From Dermatophagoides farinae (Eukaryota; Arthropoda; Arachnida; Sarcoptiformes; Pyroglyphidae), in contig NC_134678.1 in NCBI RefSeq assembly GCF_024713945.1, positions 6,448,001 through 6,512,000 of the forward strand: DNA of 64,000 nt, read 5' to 3'. The notes beneath the pieces were generated by a model. It did not search any database and was not told the origin of the DNA. It worked only from the letters and a program-made list of their open reading frames with translations. This document shows, piece after piece, positions 29,197-55,939 of the stretch. The position numbers were made by a program, and so were the translations under genes. The stretch's first letter is position 1, and each line of letters begins with the position of its first letter.

Positions 29197-31017
29197 ATGG
29201 ATATAACCAAGCATAATTTTGCACAAAATATCCATAAAATTGATGAACAAATTTCAAATTGTGATTTCATATCCATTGATTGTGAATTCAGTGGCCTGTT
29301 TCATAATCAACGTAGAAATAATGAGCTAGATAATTATGAACAAATTTATGTGACTACACGGCAAAATATAAATCAATTTCAAATTTTACAATTTGGACTT
29401 TCTTTATTTAAAAAAACAACAGATGAATATAATTTTGATTGTCATTCATATAATTTTTATATTTTTCCATCAAAATGTATCTTTTTATCCGAAGATCAAC
29501 GTGACCGTTGTTTTTTAAGCCAATCATCATCGTTAACATTTCTGGTTGAAAATGGTTTCGATTTCAATAAAGTGATTCGTGATGGTATCACATACATTCC
29601 ATTGAATCAATTAGCTACAGTTGAAACAAAAATCAAAGCAAAACTTGAAGAAAATCAAATGAAAACAAATTTTATTGAAATAGAAAAAGATGAGGATAAA
29701 AAATTCTTTCAAGAAATCAATGATAAATTGATAAAATTTATGAATAACAATGATCAACAGGAAGAAATATTACCACAATGTAATTCATATTATCGACGAA
29801 TAATCTATGAAACTGTACGAAAATCATCATTCAATGATTCAATACAAATGTCAACAGGAAAAAACGAGAACAAAGGATCGATAATATTGAAAAAAGGTAC
29901 ACCAAAACCAAAAGATGAACAAGCTAAAGCATTAATGTTTGAAAATGTTGGATTCACATTGATCATAAAATCATTGATCAAACATCAGAAACCATTAATT
30001 GGCCATGGCATGTTTTTTGATTTGTTACACATCTACAATATATTCATTGAACCATTACCAGAAAAGTATGATGAATTCAAACAATCGATTAAAAGTTGTT
30101 TCAATAATGTTTATGATACGGCTCATATTTCAATGTGTCCAAGTTTGAAGAATTTTTTTCCCACAAATTGGTAAGCAAATAATCACATCTTTCTAAAAAC
30201 AAATTTAATTAATTAAATTACTCTTTTTTTATATTCCAAATGAAAGCATTAAAAAAAGTATTCGAAACTGTACAAAGTGAACCATTTCTTGAAACGGGAT
30301 TCTTATTGAAAAATTCTCCATCCGAATATAGTAATGATAATTTTAATCGTTATCATGAAGCTGGATATGATTCCTTTATAACTGGTTGTTGTTTTGTGCA
30401 AATGATCCGTTATCTATGTGTCCAAGGATAATTTATCATTAGAAGATTTTTTTAACAATAACAAAATATTGGATAAATTTAGGAATCAAATTTTTATTTA
30501 TGGAAATTATGATATCAAATTCCTGAATCTTCAAGGCAACGATGAACCATTGAATCGAAATCACATTTTTCATATGAATTTTACAAAAACATTTACACGA
30601 CATGATTTGAATTTAATATTTGCCGAATTTGGTGGATTGAATCGAATCGTTTTTCTGGATGAAGAATCTGCTTTTTGTATACTAAGAGATGAAGGTAAAA
30701 CAGCCGAAGTTATTGAAGCACTTATTGTGAATCCTAAAGGATATAAATTCGGTTTTAAGATACAACATTATTCTGAATTTATGAAGCAGAAAACCACCAA
30801 TACTGCACAAAAGCAACAACCGCTAGCCACTTCAATGAAACCTAAACATGAATCAACGCCTATGACATCCAAAGACTCATTGGATGAATGTGTAAAGAAA
30901 AAAATCAAATTATCAAATACTCCGATTAAATCCCCTAATGTTGTCAAGAAAAAGTCATCACAAATGGTTGACAAATTATTTGATGATAATATGTCCTGGA
31001 CAACTGCCACTCATTAG
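29197..31017 (+). CDS. PARN: Poly(A)-specific ribonuclease PARN-like, with two frame breaks
   Basis: A DEDD-family 3' exoribonuclease of the CAF1/PARN group, which shortens poly(A) tails and trims small-RNA 3' ends. The four acidic ligands are visible: Asp and Glu in FISIDCEFSGL, Asp in GHGMFFDLLHIYN and Asp in HEAGYDSFITG. The C-terminal part resembles the PARN RNA-recognition region and ends without a membrane helix, which favours PARN over PNLDC1. Exon 1 is 29197-30170 (donor GTAAGC). The next coding block starts at about 30247 but is one base out of phase with that donor. A second one-base shift near 30417 is needed to reach the last block, which ends at 31017. The gene is therefore either decayed or carries two single-base sequence errors. 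Confidence 0.75.
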
Positions 31018-39293: not shown

Positions 39294-41320
39294 TTAACAA
39301 TAATTTTTATTTCCATATTTTTTTCTCAATTCAGCCAATGTCGATGTATAGATCTGATGATTATATTTGATATAGACTAAACGTTTTTGATCATCTTTTG
39401 GATGATATCGTTTGATACCGGGTGCATGGACAAGGAATGCATTGTCCAGAATCAATAGATCATAGTTCATCAAACACATTTGATACATCTGTCCAAAAAA
39501 AAAAAACAAATCACTCATTTATAGCGAGAGACAAAATTATATGGGAATAAATACCTGAGACATTTTATCACGTTTTCCTTCCCACGTTAACCTTTCATCA
39601 TAAAATGGTTCATCATTGGTGCCAATATAAAGCGGTTCCCATTGATTACGATCATGTGTACGTTTGGTTACACGAAAAATATTCATCGTATTATTCTTTG
39701 GAATATCGTTGATCCAGATATTTCGATCTGGAAAATTTTGGCATTCATCACAAACATAACGATGAAAGAATATAGAATCCTCTATTATAAAGCAAATATC
39801 AAATTGAATCAATAAGAATGAAGAAAAAATCAAAGAGTATAGTCTTACTTGATTTGAATAGTTTGGATAATTCTTGTTTCGTTTTTGGTGGTTGTTTGGT
39901 AGCTTTCACTTCGAATATGGGTAACACATAAACATGAGGAAATTTAACATTGATCACAGGTACAAGTCCTTTTTGTTCACGGTCAAGTAAATCAAAAAAT
40001 GCAGGAATAATGCCTATGTTTGGATATAGTTCAATATCTGAGGCAAGTAAATATTTGGATTTTGATGATGAACGAGCAACATTACGAAGAACGTTTATTG
40101 GATACGGAAGAGATTTGTTTGACCGAAAATCCGTATCAATTTTCAACATTTTCATTGTTTCATCCAATGATTTACTACAATCGAATTTATTAGTTTTTAG
40201 AAAACTAGTTGGACCGGACATTTTGGCACTTGGTGGAAAGGCAATATCATAGACAAAATGCCAGAATACACGTTTGGCAACACATTCATGGGCACATTGG
40301 CGTAGATAATAGATCATATTAACCGATAATCGAAAATCCTCTCCAGGCGCATATACAGCCAATGAAATGGGACCATCCCAACGTGAACATAATTGTTCGG
40401 CATGATGTAAAAATCCGGGTCCTCCTTGTGTAGACAATGTTATCGTTCGACTATAATCAATGAGTCCATTTCCAATAATATAATTTTTAAGCGCTTGATA
40501 TTTGCCTCTAGTTTCCGTTGTCCAGGAAGATGGCTCGAGATTAATATTATCAGGAACTATTAATTGTGAATAATTTTTTTTAATATGAGAATTATGGTCC
40601 ATTATTTGTTTGATAACATCTTTGTTAAGTAAATCATCTAATGATTCTTTGGGTAAATCTTTTCTATTATTATCTTTGGCTTCACTCATAATGTCATTGG
40701 CTTTATCATTTTTACCATCAGTAAATGAATCCAAATCCATATGGATAATACTATTCTGTTCATCGGGTTTGGCTCCCAACATTTCAATTTTTAATTTATC
40801 ACTTTCATCAATGATTTTTTCATCTTCTTCCACCCGTTTATAACTAGCATCAGCATTATTTTGGCCAACATCTTGAATTTGAACAGGTCGATTATTTGAA
40901 TCGAAAACTTTATCAACTGATTGATCATTCGATTTTATATTCTTATCATTCGTCATGACGATCGTATTATCTGGATTCTCTTGCCGAGATTGTTGTTGTG
41001 GTTCGACAATTTTATCCACTTTTTTATTGATTATTTTGGCATCGTTAATTTGATGGTTTTCATCTATACCATCCTAAGATTAAATTCCATTTCATTATAA
41101 AGTTAATAATAAACATTTCAAATAATATAATATTTACTTTTATCATAACTTTTGTTGGCTTATCGTTGTTTTGGCTATCATGTGGATATTCGACATATCG
41201 TCGATAGTTAGTGGACAGGAATAGTAGATAAAGACCAAGTAGAATGTTGAATATGATCAATATTTTTAATATATAATGTGAATCAAGACGAAAATTCCGT
41301 AGATAACGCCATTTGAACAT
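39294..41320 (-). CDS. B4GAT1: Beta-1,4-glucuronyltransferase 1-like (GT49 family) type II membrane enzyme
   Basis: A Golgi glycosyltransferase of the Glyco_transf_49 family; B4GAT1 primes matriglycan on alpha-dystroglycan. Exons: 41320-41138, 41073-39849, 39781-39555 and 39488-39294, in phase, 609 aa. The N-terminus has a short cytosolic basic segment and one hydrophobic anchor (ILKILIIFNILLGLYLLFL), as in type II Golgi enzymes. A long charged stem of about 150 residues follows, then the catalytic domain from about residue 190 (TLSTQGGPGFLHHAEQLCSRWDGPIS). LLASDIELYPN carries the DxE metal-binding motif of this family, and the C-terminal LLILDNAFLVHAPGIKR is typical of it. It is longer than human B4GAT1 (415 aa), mostly in the stem. 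Closeness to LARGE's second domain means the exact ortholog is less sure than the family. Confidence 0.85.
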
Positions 41321-43700: not shown

Positions 43701-45829
43701 TCAAAATATGGAATATTCAAGATTATCATGAATTGTTGAATTTTGATGAAAATATTCAATCATTTCATCGATCGTTGATTGTTCGGATGATGGTAGATCA
43801 ACACTTTGTACGGCAAATCTAGAGCAAGCATCACGAGCAAATCGATATGCATATTCCATTGGTGCCGGTATAGTGCTACAACCAAAATAATTATAATAAT
43901 AATGACACATTGTGAAGCAAATATCCTGTAGTTGTTCCAAAGTAAAATTACAATCATCCAAAAAAATTGTATAAAGACTTGGTTTCAAATATTGTTGGTT
44001 TTGCTAGATAAAAAAAAATTAAAGAATAAGATAAAAAAGATTATCAGGATTGATTATTGAATATGAATAATAAACCTTTATTACCTCTTGTTCTGTATCG
44101 AATGTTGGTGATTTAATATTGATAATGAATTCTTTGAATAGATTATCATTTAAATTAGGATATAAAAAATTCATATTAACACTGGTTCCATTGTGGTTGC
44201 TGATTTCTTCGTTCAAACATGATGATGAACTAGTCATTGTTGATGGCATAAAATGTGATGATGTAAATTTATCCACATAAATGACTGTTAATTTAACATT
44301 ATTCAATGATTTTGATGTAAGAACTTTTTTAAAATCTCCCATTGGAAATTTTTGGAATATAATTATTGTTGTTGGAAAATAATCATTTCTTTTTTGATAT
44401 TCATCCAATAAATTAGCGAACATTGATTCATAAACACTATCGTCGAGTTTTCGAAAAATTCGTATTTCCGATATATATCGAATAAATATATCGTCAACAG
44501 TACCAACAAATGAAATGAAATTTAATTTTATTCGCTGAAAATTTTTGACAAAATCATCGATTCCTACGATCATCGTTGTATCAGGATCGAATGGAAAACG
44601 ATTCCAATGATAAGGATGTACAATATTTGGTTGGCCACCGATTTTCATACATATTTTCATTATTAAAGTGTCCATATAATGATTATTTGGATACAAATTA
44701 TCGGTGCAAAAAACTTGATTAACAATACCGTAAACTGTATTACCATAGTATTTGATTAATTCATAAATTTCAAAATTATCAAGTTTACTTCCTATAAATA
44801 AAAGTATTTTATGAATGTGTGTAAGAATTAAAAATAAATCTTAAAATAACAAAAACATCACATACCACGACAAATGCCGAAAAGTGCAAAGTCAATTGTC
44901 ATTTTTTGTTTCATATCAGAAATGATATCCCTAATATCAGTTGCATTTTTCACTTGAATAAAAGAGGAATCAGGACAACTTTTCAGATTAATGCCATAGA
45001 ATTTAGCTCGTTCATAGAATAAGAATTTAAATTGATCCATTTTCAATGCATTAAAATTCTCATCGAATATGTATAAAACCCAGTCCATTGATTTCGGTGG
45101 TATCATATAGAATGGTTTATGTTCATCATTTTCTGGCAATAATTTTGGTTTTGACAATTTATAACCAGTCGTTTTTAATGGTGTTGATGATAAACGTATG
45201 CCGTAATCGGATAAACATTCAGATATTTCTTTTGAACATTGGATTATGCATTTAAAATAGCTTTTCAAATCGATATTTGATTTTTTAATAAATAGATCAC
45301 GAACACGTGGCAAATTATATACATTGATAACGTTACCACGATAGTTGGATGCAATCACCGATCTTGTTATATTCATCAAAAGCATATTCCTCATCATCAT
45401 AATATTTAGTCGAAATCCGACACAAATCGATTGCACTGGATATTCATTTAGATTGATTCTTTCAATACAAAACAATGAAGTAATCTTTTTACGTTTTTGT
45501 GTATAACGAAATTCGATAATTTTTTTCATATCAATATCACTTGATTCAAATGATTTAAATGTAACAATTTTGTTCAAAATTAAACGATAATTATTATGTC
45601 TAAATTCAATTTGTTTATCATAAAGTTGTTGAATCATATTATTATTAGGTATATAGATGAAACCATTTTCATAGAAACAACCGTAGAACAAATTTAAAAA
45701 ATTTCTGCTGAATTCGTTGATTAATTTACTCAATTCAATGTCACTTATCTTAGGTAAGACCCAGTATTCAAATTTATGAATAGGAATATTTACAAATGAT
45801 ATTGGAAAATAATTAGTTTCCAAATCCAT
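43701..45829 (-). CDS. Divergent PAZ-less Argonaute-like protein, copy A1 (intact)
   Basis: A 657-aa protein in three exons: 45829-44866, 44791-44085 and 44003-43701, all in phase. It aligns by eye to Argonaute from end to end except for PAZ. The N domain starts NYFPISF.. IHKFEYWVLP. After a linker with VGFRLNI the sequence passes straight to the L2/MID region (ISECLSDYGIRLSSTPL), leaving about 45 residues where PAZ is expected. MID keeps the Y..K..Q..K..K guide-phosphate set (IYELIK, NQVF, MKICMKIGG). In PIWI, the first slicer Asp is present (MIVGIDDF, residue 400), the second is lost (IIIFQKFPMGDF) and the final His is Tyr (IPAPMEYAYRF). The motif FTLEQLQDICFTMCHYY matches the PIWI C-terminus. 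Catalytic slicing is not expected; guide binding is possible. Function unknown. Confidence 0.8.
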
Positions 45830-46108
45830 GATGAAATGATGCAATGATTTGAATTACATCAGAATCACGCTGAGTTTCAATATTCACACTCCAATTTCAA
45901 CAGCATGACGGATATGATGATGAAAATAGAAAAAAGTGATTGTCGATTTAAGAGGAATCTAGCGGATAAAATTGACACACGCGCACACACATACACACAA
46001 CAATGAATATAAGCACCAAAATGAAATTTAGATTTATTCAAATACGAAAAGATTTCATCACATTTATCATGATTGAATGAAAATTTTTAAATTAGAAGAG
46101 AAATATCA
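45830..46108. other. Spacer between Argonaute-like copies A1 and A2
   Basis: This 279-bp stretch holds the 5' leader of A1 and the 3' end of A2, with a short CA-rich run near 45977-46000. A related copy of part of it (about 45977-46046) recurs at 48612-48690. Confidence 0.6.
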
Positions 46109-48194
46109 CTATTCATCTACAGAATATTCTAGATTATCATGAACTCGGACCATTTGTGAAAAATTGTCGATAATTTCTTCGATAGAATCAACTTTATTAA
46201 TTTCATTACGTCCAATGCATCTTCTTGCTGCTTTTTTTGCAAATTGTTGAGCCAATTCCAACGGAAACGGCGTATCAGTGATGTAAAAATTCCCTGAATA
46301 AAGATGGCACATAGAATAGCAAAGGTTTTTGATGTGATTTTCAGACATTTTAGAATCATCAATGATAATCTTAAATTTTGTCGATTTGTATCGCTATATG
46401 AAAATGTGATTAATTTATAAATAGATTAGATATGTTTTTTTAAACTTACATTCCTTTCATTTCCAATCTCAGCGGAAATAACAAATTCTTTTTCCAGATA
46501 ATTTAAATGTTGGAAGTCAAGATTGACACTAGTACCGATTGGTACTTTTTCACCATTATTTTTAAATAAACGTATGGGGGAATTTTTATCAATCAAAAGG
46601 CTTGTTACCTTAACCTTTTTATTAATTGATTCGGCCACAGATTTCAAATCGATGTATTTTTTTCCATTAAAAATGATAATATTTTCGGGGTATTTGTCAT
46701 GTTCTTTGTGATATTCCTTCAATAAATTCTGGAATATTTCTTTATAGAGTTCTTCGTCGTTTGGCTTTACTGAAACACGTTCTATAGAGATGTTTTGACA
46801 GAAATTATTATCCATTGACGCTACAATTGAATGAGAGAAAAGGTTTCTCCCAATATTATCGAGCTTGAATTGATAACACGATGTGCCAACCATCATGGTT
46901 GATTCGGGATCGAATGAAAAAGCGTTCCAATATCTTGGGTCGATTATATTTGGCTGACCGCCTAATTTCAAACAAGATTTAATTGCAAGATTTTTGTAGA
47001 ATTCTGGCATCGTCTCATTCAAGAGAAATTTGTCGGTTAGAAAAATTTGAGTAACTACTCCATGGTAACTAGTTGCATAAGATTTGATCATTTCAAAGAT
47101 ATAATCCATTCTAGAATCTGAATAATAAGAATAAAAAATGCATAGATAATTATTAAAATTGTTTCTTATATAGATTAAAACAACATAAGAGCAGAAATTC
47201 CGATAAGAACAAACTTTATGTCTCGAATATTCAAATTTTGAAAAACCGTTTCGATTTCCGAAGCATTTTGAACGTCCACTAATTGAGTTTCGAAGCGTTT
47301 TTCAAAATTGATTCCGAATAATCTTGTTTTTTCTATGAATTTTGTTTCGAATTCTTTCATTTTTTCCGAATCGAATGGAACCAAGGATATAATGGCCATA
47401 TTAATTGTTCCAGACGGTTTAATGTAGAATGGCTTATTCGGGCAGTCAGGAATCATTTTTGGGTGACAAAGTATTGATCCATTTTTTTCGAGCGGTTTCG
47501 GGTGAATTTTAATTCCAAATGAATCTACACATTTGGCTATCTCTTTACGACATTCATTGATGAATTCATATTCCGCCTCCGGACCACAGATTATTTCTTT
47601 AGCATTTATTTTTCTAGCTTCATCGGACAATTTACAGAAATCAATGAAAATTTGAGTTTTTCCATCGTGTATTATTGTTTGTTTTGATACCATAATTAGT
47701 GATTCAGGCATTTCAGTGATTGATATTCGAAATCCAGCAATAATTGAAATTCCATCTTCTGGAAATGGATATTCCTTTTGGATGAAAATATCTGTGTTGG
47801 TAATTTTTTTGTTCTTCAATATAAGAAAATGAAAAAATTTTTCCAAATTCAATCCGGCCTCATTTAATGAATAGAATTGACCAGAATTTTTTAAGCTTAT
47901 TACATAACGATTATTGAAATTGACAACATTAGTTCTTCGAATTTGATTCGGGAAAATTGATCTACGTGAATAGATAAAACCATCTTCGTAATAGCATCCA
48001 AAAAAAATTGGAGAATTCTGCTCCATGTATTGCGTAACAATTTTAAAGAAGACTCTTTCACGATTAATACGAGGTGTGATCTGAACATCATATTTGTAGA
48101 TTACGATTGGTGAAAAATGCAATGGAAAATAATTTAAGTTCACAGTTAATGTTGATTCAATGCCATTATTATCATCATCATCTGATTTATTCAT
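46109..48194 (-). CDS. Divergent PAZ-less Argonaute-like protein, copy A2 (first splice donor mutated)
   Basis: Same three-exon layout as A1 and A3: 48194-47189, 47117-46450 and 46393-46109, 652 aa if spliced. The domain pattern is the same: N domain (LTVNLNYFPLHFSP), no PAZ, MID with EMIK, TQIF and IKSCLKLGG, and a PIWI remnant. The first slicer Asp is Ser (MMVGTSCYQ, residue 415), the second Asp is absent (IIIFNGKKYIDL) and the last His is Gln (LELAQQFAKK). The expected first donor GTATGT reads TTATGT here (base 47188), while A3 keeps GTATGT. Without splicing the first exon ends at TAA (47177-47175), leaving only N and part of MID. An in-frame ATG at 48266 would add a hydrophobic 24-residue leader. 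Decayed gene or altered splicing cannot be told apart from the sequence. Confidence 0.7.
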
Positions 48195-48439
48195 TTTGTT
48201 CAACGTGTTATAAACGACGACGATGATGATTGTGATGATACAATAGCAAAGTAACCAAAATTGCATTGATTTTTCTACCCCATCAGGACATTATATATCA
48301 ATTTAAAAAACACCTCATTTTTTTCTCATAAATCAAGTAATAATCTTTATTGCTAATGTTATATTGATATTGTTATGTTATATTGTATCGTTAGATGTGG
48401 TTGGCGTGCATGTGTGAGAGAGAGAAATTTAATTCTTGT
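48195..48439. other. 5' leader and promoter of copy A2
   Basis: This stretch aligns with the leader of copy A3, which lies beyond the foldback element at about 55045-55200. Shared pieces include the ATG context ATTGCATTG, the CCCATCAGGA block and a run around TAATCTTTATTG. The duplication unit therefore carries the promoter as well as the gene. Confidence 0.6.
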
Positions 48440-48690
48440 AATAAAAAGCTAAATATTCCAAAATATTATATTATATCATTATGGATTAAGATGGTATAAA
48501 ATGTGATGATTTAAATTTATCCACATGAATGATCAACACCACTCAATGATTTTAATGTAAGAACTTTTTTAAAATCTCTAATTTGAAATTTTTGGAATAT
48601 AATTATTTTAATTCACACACACACACACACAATAAATATAAGCACCTAAATGAAATTTTCGAAAAATTAAATTTAGATTTATTCAAATAC
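48440..48690. pseudogene. Collapsed remnant of an A1-type locus
   Basis: Three pieces, in the same order and orientation as the A1 locus but with the intervening DNA deleted: 48440-48490 matches 43254-43295 (exon 3 of the 209-aa gene), 48490-48610 matches about 44242-44366 (PIWI exon of A1) and 48612-48690 matches about 45977-46046 (leader of A1). The matches are interrupted by small indels, so the copy is old and inactive. Confidence 0.75.
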
Positions 48691-49059
48691 ACACAGGAAA
48701 ATGAGTCATGAAATAGTCGAAATGATTTTTGGTCGAGAAATTTCATGACTATTTTTCACATTCGAATTATTTCATGACTGATGGTCAAGAAATTTCTTGA
48801 TGAATATTTTTCGATTTCTTCTTCGGCGTGTTCTAGTAGATGTAATTTATGATAAATCATTGATTCAACATTGTCATTATCACCAGATTGTTTACTGATT
48901 TTTTTTATATTTTTTTCTCATTGATAAAAACTGCCTGGTTATATTTTTTACTTGGTTATAGATTTTTGTTAACTTGGTGGTGGAAATTTTTGATGCAAAA
49001 ACCAACACCCCAAAATTACGAAAATACGTGGTTTCCGGCCAATCGTAATCAATGATCGA
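48691..49059. other. Spacer, nothing recognised
   Basis: About 370 bp between the remnant and the transposon-like pieces. It contains short imperfect repeats of a phrase like ATTTCATGACT but no coding sequence I can name. Confidence 0.5.
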
Positions 49060-49620
49060 AACCAGGACATCTTCGAATCTGAAAAAAGCTTCAAGCTTCT
49101 AGAAATAGTATGCAAAAAAAATAAGAATCCAAATACAAATTAAAACAACACAAACCTGTGAAGCAGAACCTTTTAATGAAAAAGCCTCGCCTGCTTTCCA
49201 CTCCAAACTACCATAATGAAAAGGAAAAGCTGTGAAACATGCTTTGATTTTTTGTGATGTTATTTTGTAAGACTTTGAAATCAAATGCAGGCATATACCC
49301 AATTCTTTTGGGAAAACGCCCTCGGCGAGACAATGAACTGCGTCATTAGGAACGTCGTCAATTCCATCGTGTGATATTATATATCCAATGAAAATATCAT
49401 ATTCTGAACCACACCAACTGTTGATTCATTTTCCGATGAAACGTCATCCAATAGCGGTTTGCAAAGGTCGATATTTTGATATGACCTGTTGCTTTTCGCT
49501 TGAACTACTGCTTCCGGGTCAAAGCCTCTCAGTCCACACCCACGACGATATGTGTCACGTGGACGGAACGTGCCTTTAAACCCCAGAGCTTCATATTGAG
49601 CAGCATTATCTCCCGGAAGT
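49060..49620 (-). mobile_element. Decayed transposon-like protein fragment
   Basis: Minus-strand reading gives broken but protein-like text. One block contains VPNDAVHCLAEGVFPKELG followed by FTAFPFHYGSLEW and LKGSASQ. This resembles the D-x-x-H-x-L-x-E-G region of uncharacterised transposon-associated proteins common in arthropod genomes. An upstream block reads LCTLPGDNAAQYEALGFKG. Stops and frame changes separate the blocks, so it is inactive. Base composition is more GC-rich than the flanks. The family assignment is from memory of a motif and is weak. Confidence 0.45.
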
Positions 49621-49630
49621 GTGCATAATT

Positions 49631-50145
49631 CTACTTCAATTTGGATTTTTTTCCCTTTTGTTCCAACCAGATTCCATCATTTTTCAGTTTTATCAGATCA
49701 TTATTCACCACGCTGAACAATGAATGGAATGGGAGTTTTAACAGCATCTTCAGATTATTAGGATTTTTGCAGCGGCAAAAAGCCACATAAATCATTCTAT
49801 GTTGCAATACTGGTGTAGGAAGGTACACACTTATTTTATCGAAAGATTGCCCTTAAAACATTAATTAATTGTCAGAGCAAAAGCCAATACAACAGGAAAT
49901 CGTCCACGCACCAATTTAAATGGTAGCTTAGGATCTCGATCGTTTTGCTGCAAAATGAATCATAGCCTCCTTGTCAATATTCGAGCTTTAATGCTGCGTC
50001 TATTTACAAATAAACGCGTGCCATTGAGCAAACCACTTTGTGGTTCAATATTGCGACTGAACATGATAATCGATCCAATGTTTAATCCAAGTTTGTGTCT
50101 ATAGATCCTATAGGATAACCTTGTGGGTTCATCGCATGAAGACAC
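49631..50145 (-). mobile_element. Helitron-type (Pif1-like) helicase remnant
   Basis: Two blocks in the correct order on the minus strand. The first (50145-49960) contains LGLNIGSIIMFSRN and SGLLNGTRLFV, matching the Helitron/Pif1 region that normally reads like G-x-x-V-M-L-L-R-N and G-L-C-N-G-T-R-L. The second (49828-49631) contains YLPTPVLQHRMIYVAFCRC, matching the C-terminal helicase motif that normally reads L-P-x-P-V-F-x-H-G-Q-L-Y-V-A-x-S-R. The helicase Walker A, Rep domain and Helitron ends were not found, so only the 3' end of an old copy remains. Confidence 0.65.
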
Positions 50146-50901
50146 TCAACATTGAATCTTGAAAGCTCTTTTCTTTAATTTAAATGAAAAAAGTTATCAG
50201 GTATTTTAGGTATAATCAGGTTAAATAACCGAAATAACTTACCAAACGATGAGTAGATCATAGATCATGGAAACAAAAACACAGAAAAAATCATTTCAAT
50301 AAATGCAGTGTTCAAGCAAGATTTCATCATTAAATGCACACTCACACAGGCACACAAAATGAAAATCACGTGTGTCACATGTATTATCACAATAATCAAT
50401 TCGAAAAATTCGAATTCGAACTCTTTCTATGTTCTATTGAATGACTGCACCATCTATTGGATGCAAAAGCTGCAGCAACGTGTGCTGAGCTAGAACAATG
50501 AAAAAAAGCTTTGTCAAAGCTACATACCACAGAATGCGTTTCTTTATAAGCGGCTTCTACTTTTGACCTGGACAAACTGTTCAGAGGCATTCAAAAGTTT
50601 TCCCCACTGTTTTACCAAGAATCACAACAGGTTAATCTTAAAAGTAAGAAAAAATTGAACTTTATTGGCCAAAAAATTTTAAATTTTTTTACTATTAGAT
50701 ACAAAAATACAAACATTAAAAAAATCGTCGTCTCAAATCATGTACACTAATAAAAAATTATTCAAGGATAATTTTTTAGAATCAAAAGCCGTAGGTGTCG
50801 AGCATGTGATGAAAGATGATGTAATCGTATCCGGAAAACTATTTTTTTTGTATCGAAAAATTTAAATTATCCAAAAAAAACGACACGACAAATAAAGGCA
50901 A
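50146..50901. other. Transposon-flank DNA, nothing recognised
   Basis: About 750 bp between the helicase remnant and the next open frame. It has a local base composition less AT-rich than the rest near 50400-50600, but no recognisable coding sequence, terminal repeat or RNA gene. Confidence 0.45.
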
Positions 50902-51129
50902 ATGGTTGAAGATGACAATGCCACAGGACAACAATTTGTCCGTAATTTACAAGTATTTATCGGTTATTTAGTTGAAGATTTAGATACAATCTTTGCCTTA
51001 CCACCACCATATTCGGCGTTAAAAGATCTATCTTTAAAGATAGCTTTTATTTTAATTACCCAGAATTTGGGAAAAAATACAAGACATACCGTAAACATGG
51101 CTTCCTTAGAGAAGAAATTTTCACAGTGA
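50902..51129 (+). other. Open frame of unknown origin
   Basis: A 75-codon frame starting MVEDDNATGQQFVRNLQVF, with normal amino-acid composition and no repeats. Protein-like text continues in another frame to about 51240 (NASRKRCGTDTLFWRGNTRA). A possible donor (GTGAGT) follows at 51126. It lies among transposon remnants, so it may be a piece of a mobile-element gene; I cannot name it. Confidence 0.3.
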
Positions 51130-51399
51130 GTAAAACCAAAACATGCATTCTATTTTCATTCTAATTGTTTGTTTTAGAAATGCATCCAGAAAAAGATGCG
51201 GAACAGATACTCTGTTCTGGAGAGGAAATACAAGAGCCAAAACAATTACTTGGACAGAAAAAAAAATAAAAAAATATCGCTATTAAAATGCAAGAAAACC
51301 AATTGAATGCTATTACTATTTTTTTACTATTTTATTATTATTATTGTTTTTTTATTAAAATTTGGCATTATTTTTATTAAAATTAGAAGAGAAATATCA

Positions 51400-53485
51400 C
51401 TATTCATCTACAGAATATTCTAGATTATCATGAACTCGGACCATTTGTGAAAAATTGTCGATAATTTCTTCGATAGAATCAACTTTATTAATTTCATTAC
51501 GTCCAATGCATCTTCTTGCTGCTTTTTTTGCAAATTGATGAGCCAATTCCAACGGAAACGGCGCATCATTGATGTAGAAATTTTCAAAATAAAAATGGCA
51601 CATTGAATAACAAAGGTGTTTGATGTGATCTTCAGGCATTTTAGAATCATCAATGATAATCTTGTATTTTATCGATTTGTATCGCTATATGAAAATGTGA
51701 TTAATTTATAACTAGATCAGCTTTGTTTTTTTTCTAACTTACTTTTGCATTCGCTCCAATCTCAGCGGAAATAACAAATTCTTTTTCCAAACGATTTAAA
51801 TGTTGGAAGTCAAGATTGACACTAGTACCGATCGGTACTTTTTCACCATTATTTTTAAATAAACGTATGGGGGAATTTTTATCAATCAAAAGGCTTGTTA
51901 CCTTAACTTTTTTATTAATTGATTCGGCCACAGATTTCAAATCAATGTATTTTTTTTCCATGAAAAACGATAATATTTTCGGGGTATTTGTCATGTTCTT
52001 TATGATATTCTTTCAATAAATTCTGGAATATTTCTTTATAGAGTTTTTTGTCGTTTGGCTTTACTGAAACACGTTCGATAGAGATGTTTTGACAAAAATT
52101 AGCATCCATTGATGCTACAATTGAATGAGAGAAAAGGTTTTTTCCAATATTATCGAGCTTGAATTGGTAATACGATACTCCAACCATCATGGTAGATTCG
52201 GGATCGAATGAAAAAGCGTTCCAATATCTTGGGTCAATTATATTTGGCTGACCTCCTAATTTCAAACAAGATTTAATTGCAAGACTGTTGAAGAATTCTG
52301 GCATGGTATCATTCAAGAGAAAGTTTTCGGTTAGAAAAACTTGAGTAACTACTCCATGGCAGCTAGTTGCAGAAGATTTGACCTTTTCAAAGATATAATC
52401 CATTCTAGTATCTGAATAATAAGAATCAAAAATGAGTTGATAATTATTAAAATTGTTTTGTATATAAATTAAAATAACATACGAGCAGAAAGTCCGATAA
52501 GAACAAAATTTATGTCTCGAATATTCAAATTTTGAAAAACCGTATCGATTTCCGAAGCATTTTGAACGTCCACTAATTGAGTTTCGAAGCGTTTTTCTAA
52601 ATTGATTCCAAAAAATTTTGTTTTCTCTATGAACATTGTTTCGAATTCTTTCATTTTTTCCGAATCGAATGGAACAAAGGATAAAATGGCCATATTAATC
52701 GTTCCAGACGGTTTAATGTAGAATGGCTTATTCGGGCTGTCAGGAATCATTTTTGGGTGACAAAGTATTGACCCATTTGTTTCGAGCGGTTTAGGGTCAA
52801 TTTTAATTCCAAATGAATCCGCACATTCGGCTATCTCTTTACGACATTCATTGATGAATTCGTATTCCTCCTCCGGACTACAGTTTAACTCTTTAGAGAA
52901 TGCTTTGTTAGCTTCTTCAGGCAATTCAAAGGGACTAATTGAAGCTTGAGTTTTTCCATCGTATATTATTGTTTGTTTTGATACCATAATTAGTGATTCA
53001 GGCATTTCAGTGATTGATATTCGAAATCCAGCAATAATTGAAATTCCATCTTCTGGAAATGGATATTCCTTTTGGATGAAAAGATCTGTGTTGGTTACTT
53101 TTTTTTTCTTCGAAATGAGAAAATGAAAAATTTTTTTCAAATTCAATCCGGCCTCATTTAATGAAGAGAATTTACCAGAATTTTTTAAGCTTATTATATA
53201 ACGATTATTGAAATTGACAATATTATTTCTTCGAATTTGATTCGGGACAATTGATCTACGTGAATAGATAAAACCATCTTCATAATAGCATCCAAAAAAG
53301 GTTGGTGAATTCTGCTTCATGTATTGCATAATAATTTTAAAAGAGACTTCTCCACGATTAATAGGAGGTGTGATTTGAACATCATATTTGTAGATTACGA
53401 TTGGTGAAAAATGCAATGGAAAATAATTTAATTTCACGGTAAATGTTGATTCAATGCCATTATTATTATCTTCTGATTTATTCAT
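51400..53485 (-). pseudogene. Divergent PAZ-less Argonaute-like gene, copy A3 (frameshifted, leader interrupted)
   Basis: Closely similar to A2 over its full length. Exons: 53485-52483, 52411-51743 and 51684-51400. The first donor is intact (GTATGT at 52482-52477). Exon 2 is 669 bp against 668 in A2 because a T run near 51950-51957 (plus strand) has eight T instead of seven; this shifts frame after NIIVFHGKK. The first PIWI Asp is replaced by Ser (MMVGVSYYQ). The 5' leader is split by a 1,492-bp foldback element at 53551-55042. As written the gene encodes only N, linker, MID and the start of PIWI. A sequencing slip in the homopolymer could explain the frameshift, but not the insertion. Confidence 0.75.
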
Positions 53486-53550: not shown

Positions 53551-55042
53551 CACACATGACCAGTAAAAAACTGGACACTTTCGAAAAAAGCATTACGGCC
53601 TATGGGAGAGAGGGTTTTTTCAAAGCTTCTAAAACCATGTTTTTTGTCGGAATCAAGCGAAAATATTTTACCAGTGCATAGTGAAAGAGTTGCTCTTTGA
53701 ACAGTCTGAGTTTCAACTTCCGGCTACCATTTTCGAGAGTAGATGTAGGGTGTCAAAGTTTATGTAGGGGAAATTTTCGCCCCTCTCGACTGTACTGCCA
53801 TCTTGCAGATTAATAAATCCCTGAGATTAGCAAAAATGTATAGACACCAATTTTCGAATGTCGTGCAATCATACTTAACATCAATTTTGACAATTTTGCA
53901 TTTGTTTTAAATCTTGTTTTAAGACATAAATAAAATATATCACTACAATGGTTTATTTTGTGCCATTTTTTGTTGTAAAGTAAGAATTCAAAAATTCAAA
54001 ATCGAGAAAATGACCAATATCCAACCTAACACGACCAGATCAGAATCGAGAAAATGGCAAATTTCAAAACTAACACGACCAGTTCAGAATTCAGAATCGA
54101 GAAAATGACCAATATCCAACCTAACACGACCAGATCAGAATCGAGAAAATGGCAAATTTCAAAACTAACACGACCAGTTCAGAATTCAGAATCGAGAAAA
54201 TGACCAATATCCAACCTAACACGACCTGCTCGTGTTAGGTTGGATTTGATGTTTTCTCGATTTTGAATTTTGAATTCTGAATTGGTTGTGTTAGTTTGGA
54301 CTTGTTATTTTCTCGATTCTGAACTGGTCGTGTTAGGTTGGATTTGTTATTTTCTCGATTCTGAACTGGTCGTGTTAGTTTGGACTTGTTATTTTCTGAA
54401 TTTTGAATTCTGAATTGATTGTGTTAGGTTGGATATTGGCCATTTTCTCGATTCTGATCTGGTCGTGTTAGGTTGGATATTGGTCATTTTCTCGATTCTG
54501 AATTCTGAACTGGTCGTGTTAGTTTTGAAATTTGCCATTTTCTCGATTCTGATCTGGTCGTGTTAGGTTGGATATTTGGTCATTTTCTCGATTTTGAATT
54601 TTTGAATTCTTACTTTACAACAAAAAATGGCACAAAATAAACCATTGTAGTGATATATTTTATTTATGTCTTAAAACAAGATTTAAAACAAATGCAAAAT
54701 TGTCAAAATTGATGTTAAGTATGATTGCACGACATTCGAAAATTGGTGTCTATACATTTTTGCTAATCTCAGGGATTTATTAATCTGCAAGATGGCAGTA
54801 CAGTCGAGAGGGGCGAAAATTTCCCCTACATAAACTTTGACACCCTACATCTACTCTCGAAAATGGTAGCCGGAAGTTGAAACTCAGACTGTTCAAAGAG
54901 CAACTCTTTCACTATGCACTGGTAAAATATTTTCGCTTGATTCCGACAAAAAATATGGTTTTAGAAGCTTTGAAAAAACCCTCTCTCCCATAGGCCGTAA
55001 TGCTTTTTTCGAAAGTGTCCAGTTTTTTACTGGTCATGTGTG
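53551..55042. mobile_element. Foldback / MITE-like element with long inverted repeats
   Basis: A near-perfect palindrome: a left arm of about 674 bp (53551-54224), a central loop of about 5 bp (54225-54229) and a right arm of about 813 bp (54230-55042). The outer ends are CACACATGACCAGT and its complement, each flanked by TA (53549-53550 and 55043-55044). That fits a TA target-site duplication as made by Tc1/mariner-type transposases. The inner part of each arm is built from repeats of about 97 bp containing CCTAACACGACC and GAGAAAATG. It has no transposase gene, so it is non-autonomous. High arm identity suggests a recent insertion or ongoing conversion. It sits in the 5' leader of A3. Confidence 0.85.
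54000..54225. repeat. About 97-bp internal tandem repeats of the foldback element
   Basis: The unit begins near GAATCGAGAAAATGACC, runs through CCAACCTAACACGACCAG, then has a variant half with GGCAAATTTC. It is present about 2.4 times on the left. Complementary, more variable copies fill 54230-54600 on the right, which accounts for the longer right arm. Confidence 0.75.
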
Positions 55043-55044
55043 TA

Positions 55045-55939
55045 TATTGCATTGGTTTTTCTATCCCATCAGGACCATTCATATATAAAATAGAAAAAAC
55101 CAACTCATTAAAAATTTTTTTATCAGGAATCAATAATCTTTATTGATAATGTTGATATTGTTATGTAATATTGTATCGTTAGGTGTGGTTGTCGTGTATG
55201 TTTGTGTGTGTGTTTATATGTGTTTATGCTAACAAGTGTTTTCAATCAATAAATGACCAATTCTCTTGTTGTCCACAGGAAGCTTACATTTTCACATAGG
55301 ACTTGAGTGAGTTGATCGCCGAATTCCAATTCAACTATAACATTGAGCGAATTGAAAAAAAAGAATGTGTCATATATTGAATGTGTGTGTGTGAATAATA
55401 AAAAAAAATTATACAACAAAAAAATCTTTAATGTGTTTACAAGAATTAAATTTCTCTCTCTCTCACACACACGCACACACACACCCTTACATACATATAT
55501 ATCACTTGCACACGGTTGAGATCTCTTCTTAGGAGTCCATATACATCCGTTTCTTTGATTGAGAATTCTTACATCAATCCACACCACACACACACACACA
55601 CATACATACACACACCAACACACAGGACCAGAAGAGATCACAGGAGGTTTGAAGGTTTGAAAAAAAAATTATTTCATTCATTCATTATATATACCTAAAT
55701 GTGTAACAAATAAATTAGGAAAATGAAAAAAAAATAACCAACATTGATGATGAAAATGATCAGTGAAGAATCTCGAGACGAGATTCACATTCACTATTCA
55801 AAGCCATCATCATCATCATTTTGGAGAATAAAATGAATTTTTTTGTTTTGTTTTTTTTTTAATTATCACATTTGTTTCTGTTAATTGGATTAGATTTGAG
55901 AATTTTAATCACACACATACTCTCACTCACTCTCTCTTG

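Follow-up and report, generated by a model that had tools for sequence, protein, structure and literature searches.

In eukaryotic Argonautes, the PAZ domain grips the 3' end of the guide. Reduction of PAZ together with the slicer centre is known from microbes and is unusual in an animal. We analyzed a window of 64,000 nucleotides (nt) from the mite Dermatophagoides farinae (C2:6448001-6512000 of a 62.4 Mb genome), in which three adjacent Argonaute-like genes of the minus strand, named A1 to A3, appear to have lost PAZ. Two further members, A4 and A5, were found elsewhere, bringing the PAZ-less genes of this genome to five. A preliminary description of the window, made without knowing its origin, had rightly guessed an astigmatid mite. 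At locus L019, 118 of 119 residues of one exon agree with the solved Der f 2, which makes D. farinae almost certain as the species.

Closest described systems

In archaea, the catalytically dead, PAZ-less complex of AfAgo and AfAgo-N binds guide RNA and target DNA, and a coupling of PIWI inactivation with PAZ reduction has been proposed for prokaryotes (PMC10954474). The mite genes share with this complex, and with the PAZ-less long-B prokaryotic Argonautes (pAgos), the layout N-linker 1 (L1)-linker 2 (L2)-MID-PIWI and an inactive PIWI, the latter predicted from residues in the mite, where L1 is weak; those systems, however, are prokaryotic, and AfAgo is made of two chains. Since the introns of the mite family are common to mite paralogues, the likeness to these systems is taken as convergent. 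Outside prokaryotes, a PIWI-like protein of Leishmania (predicted 133 kDa) is another eukaryotic Argonaute relative without PAZ, but it belongs to a protist and keeps the DDH triad (PMC3528672); we set it beside the mite genes by description. It is an addition to the preliminary description, in which PAZ-less Argonautes were familiar from prokaryotes and, to its author's knowledge, not as an animal tandem family. Search listings of openly licensed papers, most of which were seen as listings alone, showed no animal gene family of PAZ-less Argonautes.

Isoform 2 of Euschistus heros AGO-2 is a rare transcript without PAZ (0.14 transcripts per million) found beside the PAZ isoform (PMC7078254), being an animal PAZ-less transcript and not a gene family. 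By domain annotation, Piwi-family proteins reduced to PIWI are reported from four parasitiform mites, and MID, alone or together with N, is said to be missing from most Acari Ago2 homologues (PMC7659050). The available passages of a Sarcoptes paper (PMC5466799) do not mention PAZ, and those of two other papers concern Dicers (PMC3522703, PMC3563456). Psoroptes ovis has a divergent Argonaute clade called potentially P. ovis-specific, PsoAgo1-6, in which five members carry consecutive gene numbers, suggesting a tandem array, and PsoAgo1, 3, 4 and 6 show the slicer motif S[E/K]HE; the word "PAZ" occurs 0 times in the main text of that paper (PMC6211577). By eye only, S-K-H-E can be read in A3 and S-E-N-E in A2, although the alignment gives S-D-gap-H and S-D-G-Q, respectively, at the canonical sites. 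Judging from the published description, PsoAgo1-6 may be the same family as A1-A5.

D. farinae itself lacks Piwi proteins, and its transposon small interfering RNAs (siRNAs) are Dicer products of about 24 nt; those of the master locus have 5' monophosphates (about half are removed by a monophosphate-specific nuclease) and unmethylated, unmodified 3' ends. The same study reports eight confident Argonautes and describes two mite Dicers as having a divergent PAZ (PMC5805368). We found eight Argonautes with PAZ in this genome besides the five without it, and we infer, from number and motif, that the six divergent ones are Ago3-Ago8 of that study. The PAZ-less genes resemble these six in having, with the exceptions given below, a MID phase-1 and a PIWI phase-0 intron at matching places and, for A1-A3, in L2-MID-PIWI homology (E-value, E, of 4.9e-40), but the six keep PAZ and a DEDD-type centre, which A1-A5 do not.

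Domain composition and absence of PAZ

The window genes A3 (53485-51400), A2 (48194-46109) and A1 (45829-43701) and a neighboring relic are composed as follows:

44866..45829, minus strand: A1 exon 1, with start codon, N-terminal domain, L1, L2 and first part of MID, without PAZ
44085..44791, minus strand: A1 exon 2, preceded by a phase-1 intron, with the remainder of MID, including its 5'-phosphate pocket, and the greater part of PIWI
43701..44003, minus strand: A1 exon 3, preceded by a phase-0 intron, with PIWI end, C-terminus and stop
47190..48194, minus strand: A2 exon 1, 335 amino acids (aa), with TT at the donor place where A3 has GT
46450..47117, minus strand: A2 exon 2, MID/PIWI
46109..46393, minus strand: A2 exon 3, PIWI end and stop
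52483..53485, minus strand: A3 exon 1, donor GTATGT present
51743..52411, minus strand: A3 exon 2, frameshifted compared with A2 in an A-run near 51945
51400..51684, minus strand: A3 exon 3
48489..48690, minus strand: relic of another A1-type copy, with a PIWI fragment (48490-48607, DNA 85% identical) accompanied by two short stretches that match A1 upstream DNA

The preliminary description had three minus-strand genes sharing N, MID and PIWI, which held for MID and PIWI, while N could be shown for about 51 columns only. Pfam PIWI was matched by A1 (2.5e-27), A2 exon 2 (2.6e-16) and exon 3 (1.6e-9), and two A3 pieces (1.9e-8 and 2.5e-8). ArgoN remained under the Pfam cut-off in A2 (2e-4) and A3 (8e-6), and A3 had weak scores for ArgoL2 (0.004) and ArgoMid (0.24). 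When a profile of A1-A3 was compared with the six PAZ-bearing divergent paralogues, A1 residues 165-653 (L2, MID, PIWI and C-terminus) were aligned with E 4.9e-40, so the MID/PIWI profile match on which the preliminary description was to stand or fall was obtained. For the N domain, homology is shown by 51 columns that match locally between N-L1 profiles, with a probability of 87.5 and E 3.5e-6; their end-to-end match had a probability of 47.7, a second match, at L1, was weak (E 0.58, with L1 partly judged by eye), and the PAZ part, taken as control, gave E 0.24-0.4. Full-length MAFFT placed part of the A1-A3 gap in the N domain, and for this reason we worked with profile alignment and with sequences aligned from L2 to the C-terminal side.

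Pfam PAZ found no match in A1, A2 exons 1-3, A3 exon 1, A4 and A5 exons 1-2, the sequences to which it was applied individually. Among the best candidates scored across the genome (12), 11 matched PAZ, 9 of them in the eight other Argonaute genes (one gene with two) and 2 close to RNase III domains, in genes regarded as Dicers. The window genes, A4 and A5 had none of the 11. A third Dicer-like locus (C3:6463265-6464410) has two RNase III matches and no Pfam PAZ match, and hence Pfam alone is no proof of PAZ absence. We therefore rely also on a profile built from the PAZ of the genome's own eight Argonautes, each held out in turn, which recovered 8 of 8 (E 4.3e-12 to 9.8e-37). Against the six-frame open stretches of at least 20 aa from the window and two related loci, L017 (that of A4) and L026, its best match in all runs was only E 0.46.

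The spacing between the GF motif of L1 and the FG motif of L2 is 182-220 residues in the eight PAZ-bearing Argonautes (median 192.5) and 71, 72, 72, 77 and 105 residues in A1-A5, where the motifs of A4 and A5 were placed by eye, leaving no room for PAZ. Pfam, the home-made profile and the spacing thus agree with the original claim that L1 runs into L2 within an uninterrupted exon 1. The gap it described was confirmed; its size by medians is about 120 missing residues, versus about 135 in the figures given then. A hidden PAZ exon, named there as the observation that would overturn the claim, was found neither in the window nor by the genome-wide Pfam PAZ matches. Likewise, no separate PAZ partner gene was found, since all 11 matches belong to the eight other Argonautes or lie close to RNase III domains; given the Dicer-like locus without a PAZ match, a divergent PAZ might still have been missed. 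The comparisons support the loss of PAZ in a tandem animal Argonaute family.

Slicer and pocket residues

A canonical eukaryotic AGO/PIWI protein has PAZ and the slicer residues D-E-D-H/D, and A1-A5 depart from both. At the catalytic sites we found D-D-K-Y in A1, S-D-G-Q in A2, S-D-gap-H in A3 (the gap is the cut made at its frameshift), gap-D-N-D in A4 and N-Y-N-I in A5, so none of the five has a complete centre, while D at 597, 669 and 807 is kept in all six divergent Argonautes. A1 has probably lost the ability to cut, judging from these residues. In human Ago2 numbering, Y529, K533, Q545, K566 and K570, which belong to the 5'-phosphate pocket of MID, are all kept in A1 (5 of 5 tested), compared with 24 of 56 invariant columns kept overall. 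A1 may then hold a 5' phosphate.

Further members and descent

A4 is found close to an end of contig C2, at a distance of 11-13 kb (C2:9000-17500), and matches Pfam PIWI (2.9e-9); part of its N domain seems missing by eye. A5, on C5 near 4.13 Mb, was found with A1 as query (2.3e-8, 22% identity), and Pfam names no domain in its exons 1-2. Profile comparison over L2-MID-PIWI with all eight PAZ-bearing Argonautes gave 1.6e-16 for A4 and 5.6e-12 for A5. As query, A5 recovers A1 (2.1e-8) and A3 (2.5e-7), whereas the hits of A4 at E <0.02 are confined to the last exons of A3, A2 and a single divergent Argonaute, with A1 at 0.17.

The introns suggest where these genes came from. A phase-1 intron in MID occupies the same alignment column in five of the six divergent Argonautes, L016 being the exception, and in all four PAZ-less genes with a usable donor there (A1, A3, A4 and A5). 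A phase-0 intron in PIWI falls within one gapped stretch (columns 476-489) in the six divergent Argonautes and in A1, A3 and A5, being absent from A4. Ago1 has its introns elsewhere (columns 274 and 510) and the corresponding region of Ago2 is a single open frame. The places and phases common to the mite divergent Argonautes indicate that the PAZ-less genes descend from that line. A prokaryotic origin or contamination is rejected on the same introns; a scan of genome contigs with exon 1, which reaches only sequences carrying two short motifs, returned 108 pattern matches and zero confirmed relatives.

In a tree of 13 sequences, with A2 and A3 joined at their lesions as in all trees, a branch supported at 100/99, and present in 100% of 200 bootstrap trees, separates the five PAZ-less genes from the others, although the branches of A4 and A5 are long (2.25 and 3.06) and make their places unsure. 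Without A4 and A5 and rooted on Ago1/Ago2, the trio is beside the six divergent Argonautes, which group weakly (68/78 without the two, 84/88 with them). Two trees nesting the trio inside the divergent clade were not rejected by the approximately unbiased test (p 0.23 and 0.11).

Gene models, decay and selection

The A1 model has three exons, GT-AG introns and zero inner stops. Its length of 657 aa, as first given, holds, with the reserve that a second donor of equal score, three codons further on in the last intron, could give 660 aa. Splice sites were selected among scored candidates, knowing which junction was to be expected; the donors used were top-scoring or tied (for the last donor of A1, one of two), except the last donor of L013, picked by hand, and some acceptors, in L011, L014 and L015, were not the top row.

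A1 is the only lesion-free gene of the window. A2 and A3 are near-copies with 84% identity in exon 1 (A1 has 27% with A2 and 32% with A3) and one lesion each, the first splice donor of A2 being lost (TT in place of GTATGT in A3) and the frame of A3 being shifted by one extra A in the exon 2 A-run compared with A2. Both the lesions in two of the three genes and the broken slicer centre are additions to the preliminary description. A2 may use another donor and the A-run of A3 may be an assembly error. The relic between A2 and A3 suggests that the array may be a duplicated pair of A1-type and A2-type genes followed by decay.

Upstream of A3, positions 53993-54500 contain direct repeats (95 nt copies) and 113 nt inverted arms, 90% complementary, which might fold into a hairpin or be part of a mobile element. 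Segments 48260-48416, near the upstream side of A2, and 55046-55204, 1.6 kb upstream of A3, are about 79% identical; the pattern looks like an insertion, ahead of A3, of about 1.5 kb with those repeats.

Purifying selection in the past is supported by the coding sequences. Between A1 and A2, the proportions of nonsynonymous and synonymous differences are pN 0.438 and pS 0.670 (p 2e-15), a rough ratio since synonymous sites are near saturation. Between A2 and A3, the ratio of the corresponding rates (dN/dS) is 0.55 overall (p 0.0013) and 0.37 in exons 2 and 3 (p 3e-4). The longest open frames exceed the maximum of 500 shuffles in A1 (331 vs 143), A4 (353 vs 285) and A5 (363 vs 199), where those of A4 and A5 extend into predicted introns.

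Possible role and alternative explanations

There is good reason to regard the family as a real and unusual animal Argonaute variant, with a well-supported architecture and a function that we infer. That it is PAZ-less and derived from a mite-specific divergent line, whose other members keep PAZ and a DEDD-type centre, seems to us almost certain. The explanation we favor as a whole, a PAZ-less, non-cutting and siRNA-binding A1 of such descent, is fairly probable. The MID pocket of A1 would still hold the 5' phosphate of a small RNA, which would pair with targets; the guide 3' end would not be anchored by a PAZ and no cutting would follow. A1 could thus be a non-cleaving siRNA binder tolerant of guide length, working as an adaptor or as a buffer, and in the latter case the transposon-silencing Dicer siRNAs would be what it and the DEDD Argonautes compete for. 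A4 and A5, having lost parts of the pocket, might be guide-free protein scaffolds. For siRNA binding without cutting, taken by itself, we would put the chances slightly below even.

Several observations weigh against this explanation. A1 has D at the site of R812, a further residue of the 5'-phosphate pocket in human Ago2, and the five tested residues are kept less well in A2 and A3 (4 of 5), A5 (3 of 5) and A4 (1 of 5). Some PAZ-bearing paralogues have an incomplete pocket as well (L013, 3/5; L016, 2/5; Ago2, 4/5), making it a loose guide to function here. D597 is retained in A1 and H807 in A3, so that the case for slicer loss depends on D669 and the remaining sites, among which the alignment at E637 is unsure (Q or T in three PAZ-bearing paralogues). 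Exon 1 evolves fast between A2 and A3 (dN/dS 0.78, p 0.20), which also fits decay or conflict, and the introns are all predicted from splice consensus.

Some of these points would also suit a guide-free scaffold or regulator, in which the Argonaute fold is kept for contacts with the RNA interference (RNAi) machinery, as a decoy or dominant-negative partner with no RNA bound. The incomplete slicer set in all five genes, the missing R812 of A1, and the pocket losses and long branches of A4 and A5 would be expected from it, but the tested pocket residues of A1 and, mostly, of A2 and A3 are preserved, and we hold it to be somewhat unlikely. The lost donor, the frameshift, the A1-type relic and the fast exon 1 could instead indicate pseudogenes from a dying branch of divergent Argonautes under relaxed selection. 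This is improbable, given that the A1, A4 and A5 models are stop-free after more than one change per site, with open frames longer than in every shuffle (those of A4 and A5 with the intron reserve above), and given the pN against pS of A1-A2 and the low dN/dS of A2-A3 exons 2 and 3.

That PAZ exists in a form too divergent to recognize, or comes from a different gene or exon, seems very improbable. Pfam PAZ is blind at one of three Dicer-like loci (C3:6463k), being not fully sensitive, and split Argonautes exist in archaea (PMC10954474); against this stand the spacing of 71-105 versus 182-220 residues in an uninterrupted exon 1, the leave-one-out recovery of every Argonaute PAZ and the assignment of all 11 Pfam matches to other genes.

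Provided that the PAZ-less, slicer-broken family is under selection, it would test how much of the Argonaute fold guide handling needs, and it would show in animals the coupled loss proposed for prokaryotes (PMC10954474). The RNAi system of this mite, which lacks Piwi proteins and directs siRNAs against transposons (PMC5805368), would also gain a component that seems not to have been described. A broader scenario, possible but rather doubtful, is that an animal lineage independently repeated the prokaryotic route of slicer and PAZ loss, yielding RNA-guided, non-cutting target readers of unfixed guide length that regulate the Dicer-siRNA transposon defence which replaced Piwi-interacting RNAs in psoroptid mites.

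Neighboring genes

About 13 kb from A1, positions 29197-31014 (plus strand) encode a PARN-like deadenylase with a CAF1 ribonuclease domain (2.5e-70), an RNA-binding domain (3.4e-11) and an R3H domain below the cut-off. In other animals, relatives of PARN shorten the 3' ends of small RNAs, and the proximity to A1 is probably a coincidence. Adjoining the array is a Glycosyltransferase-49 gene of dystroglycan type (39802-41073, minus strand; 8.1e-56).

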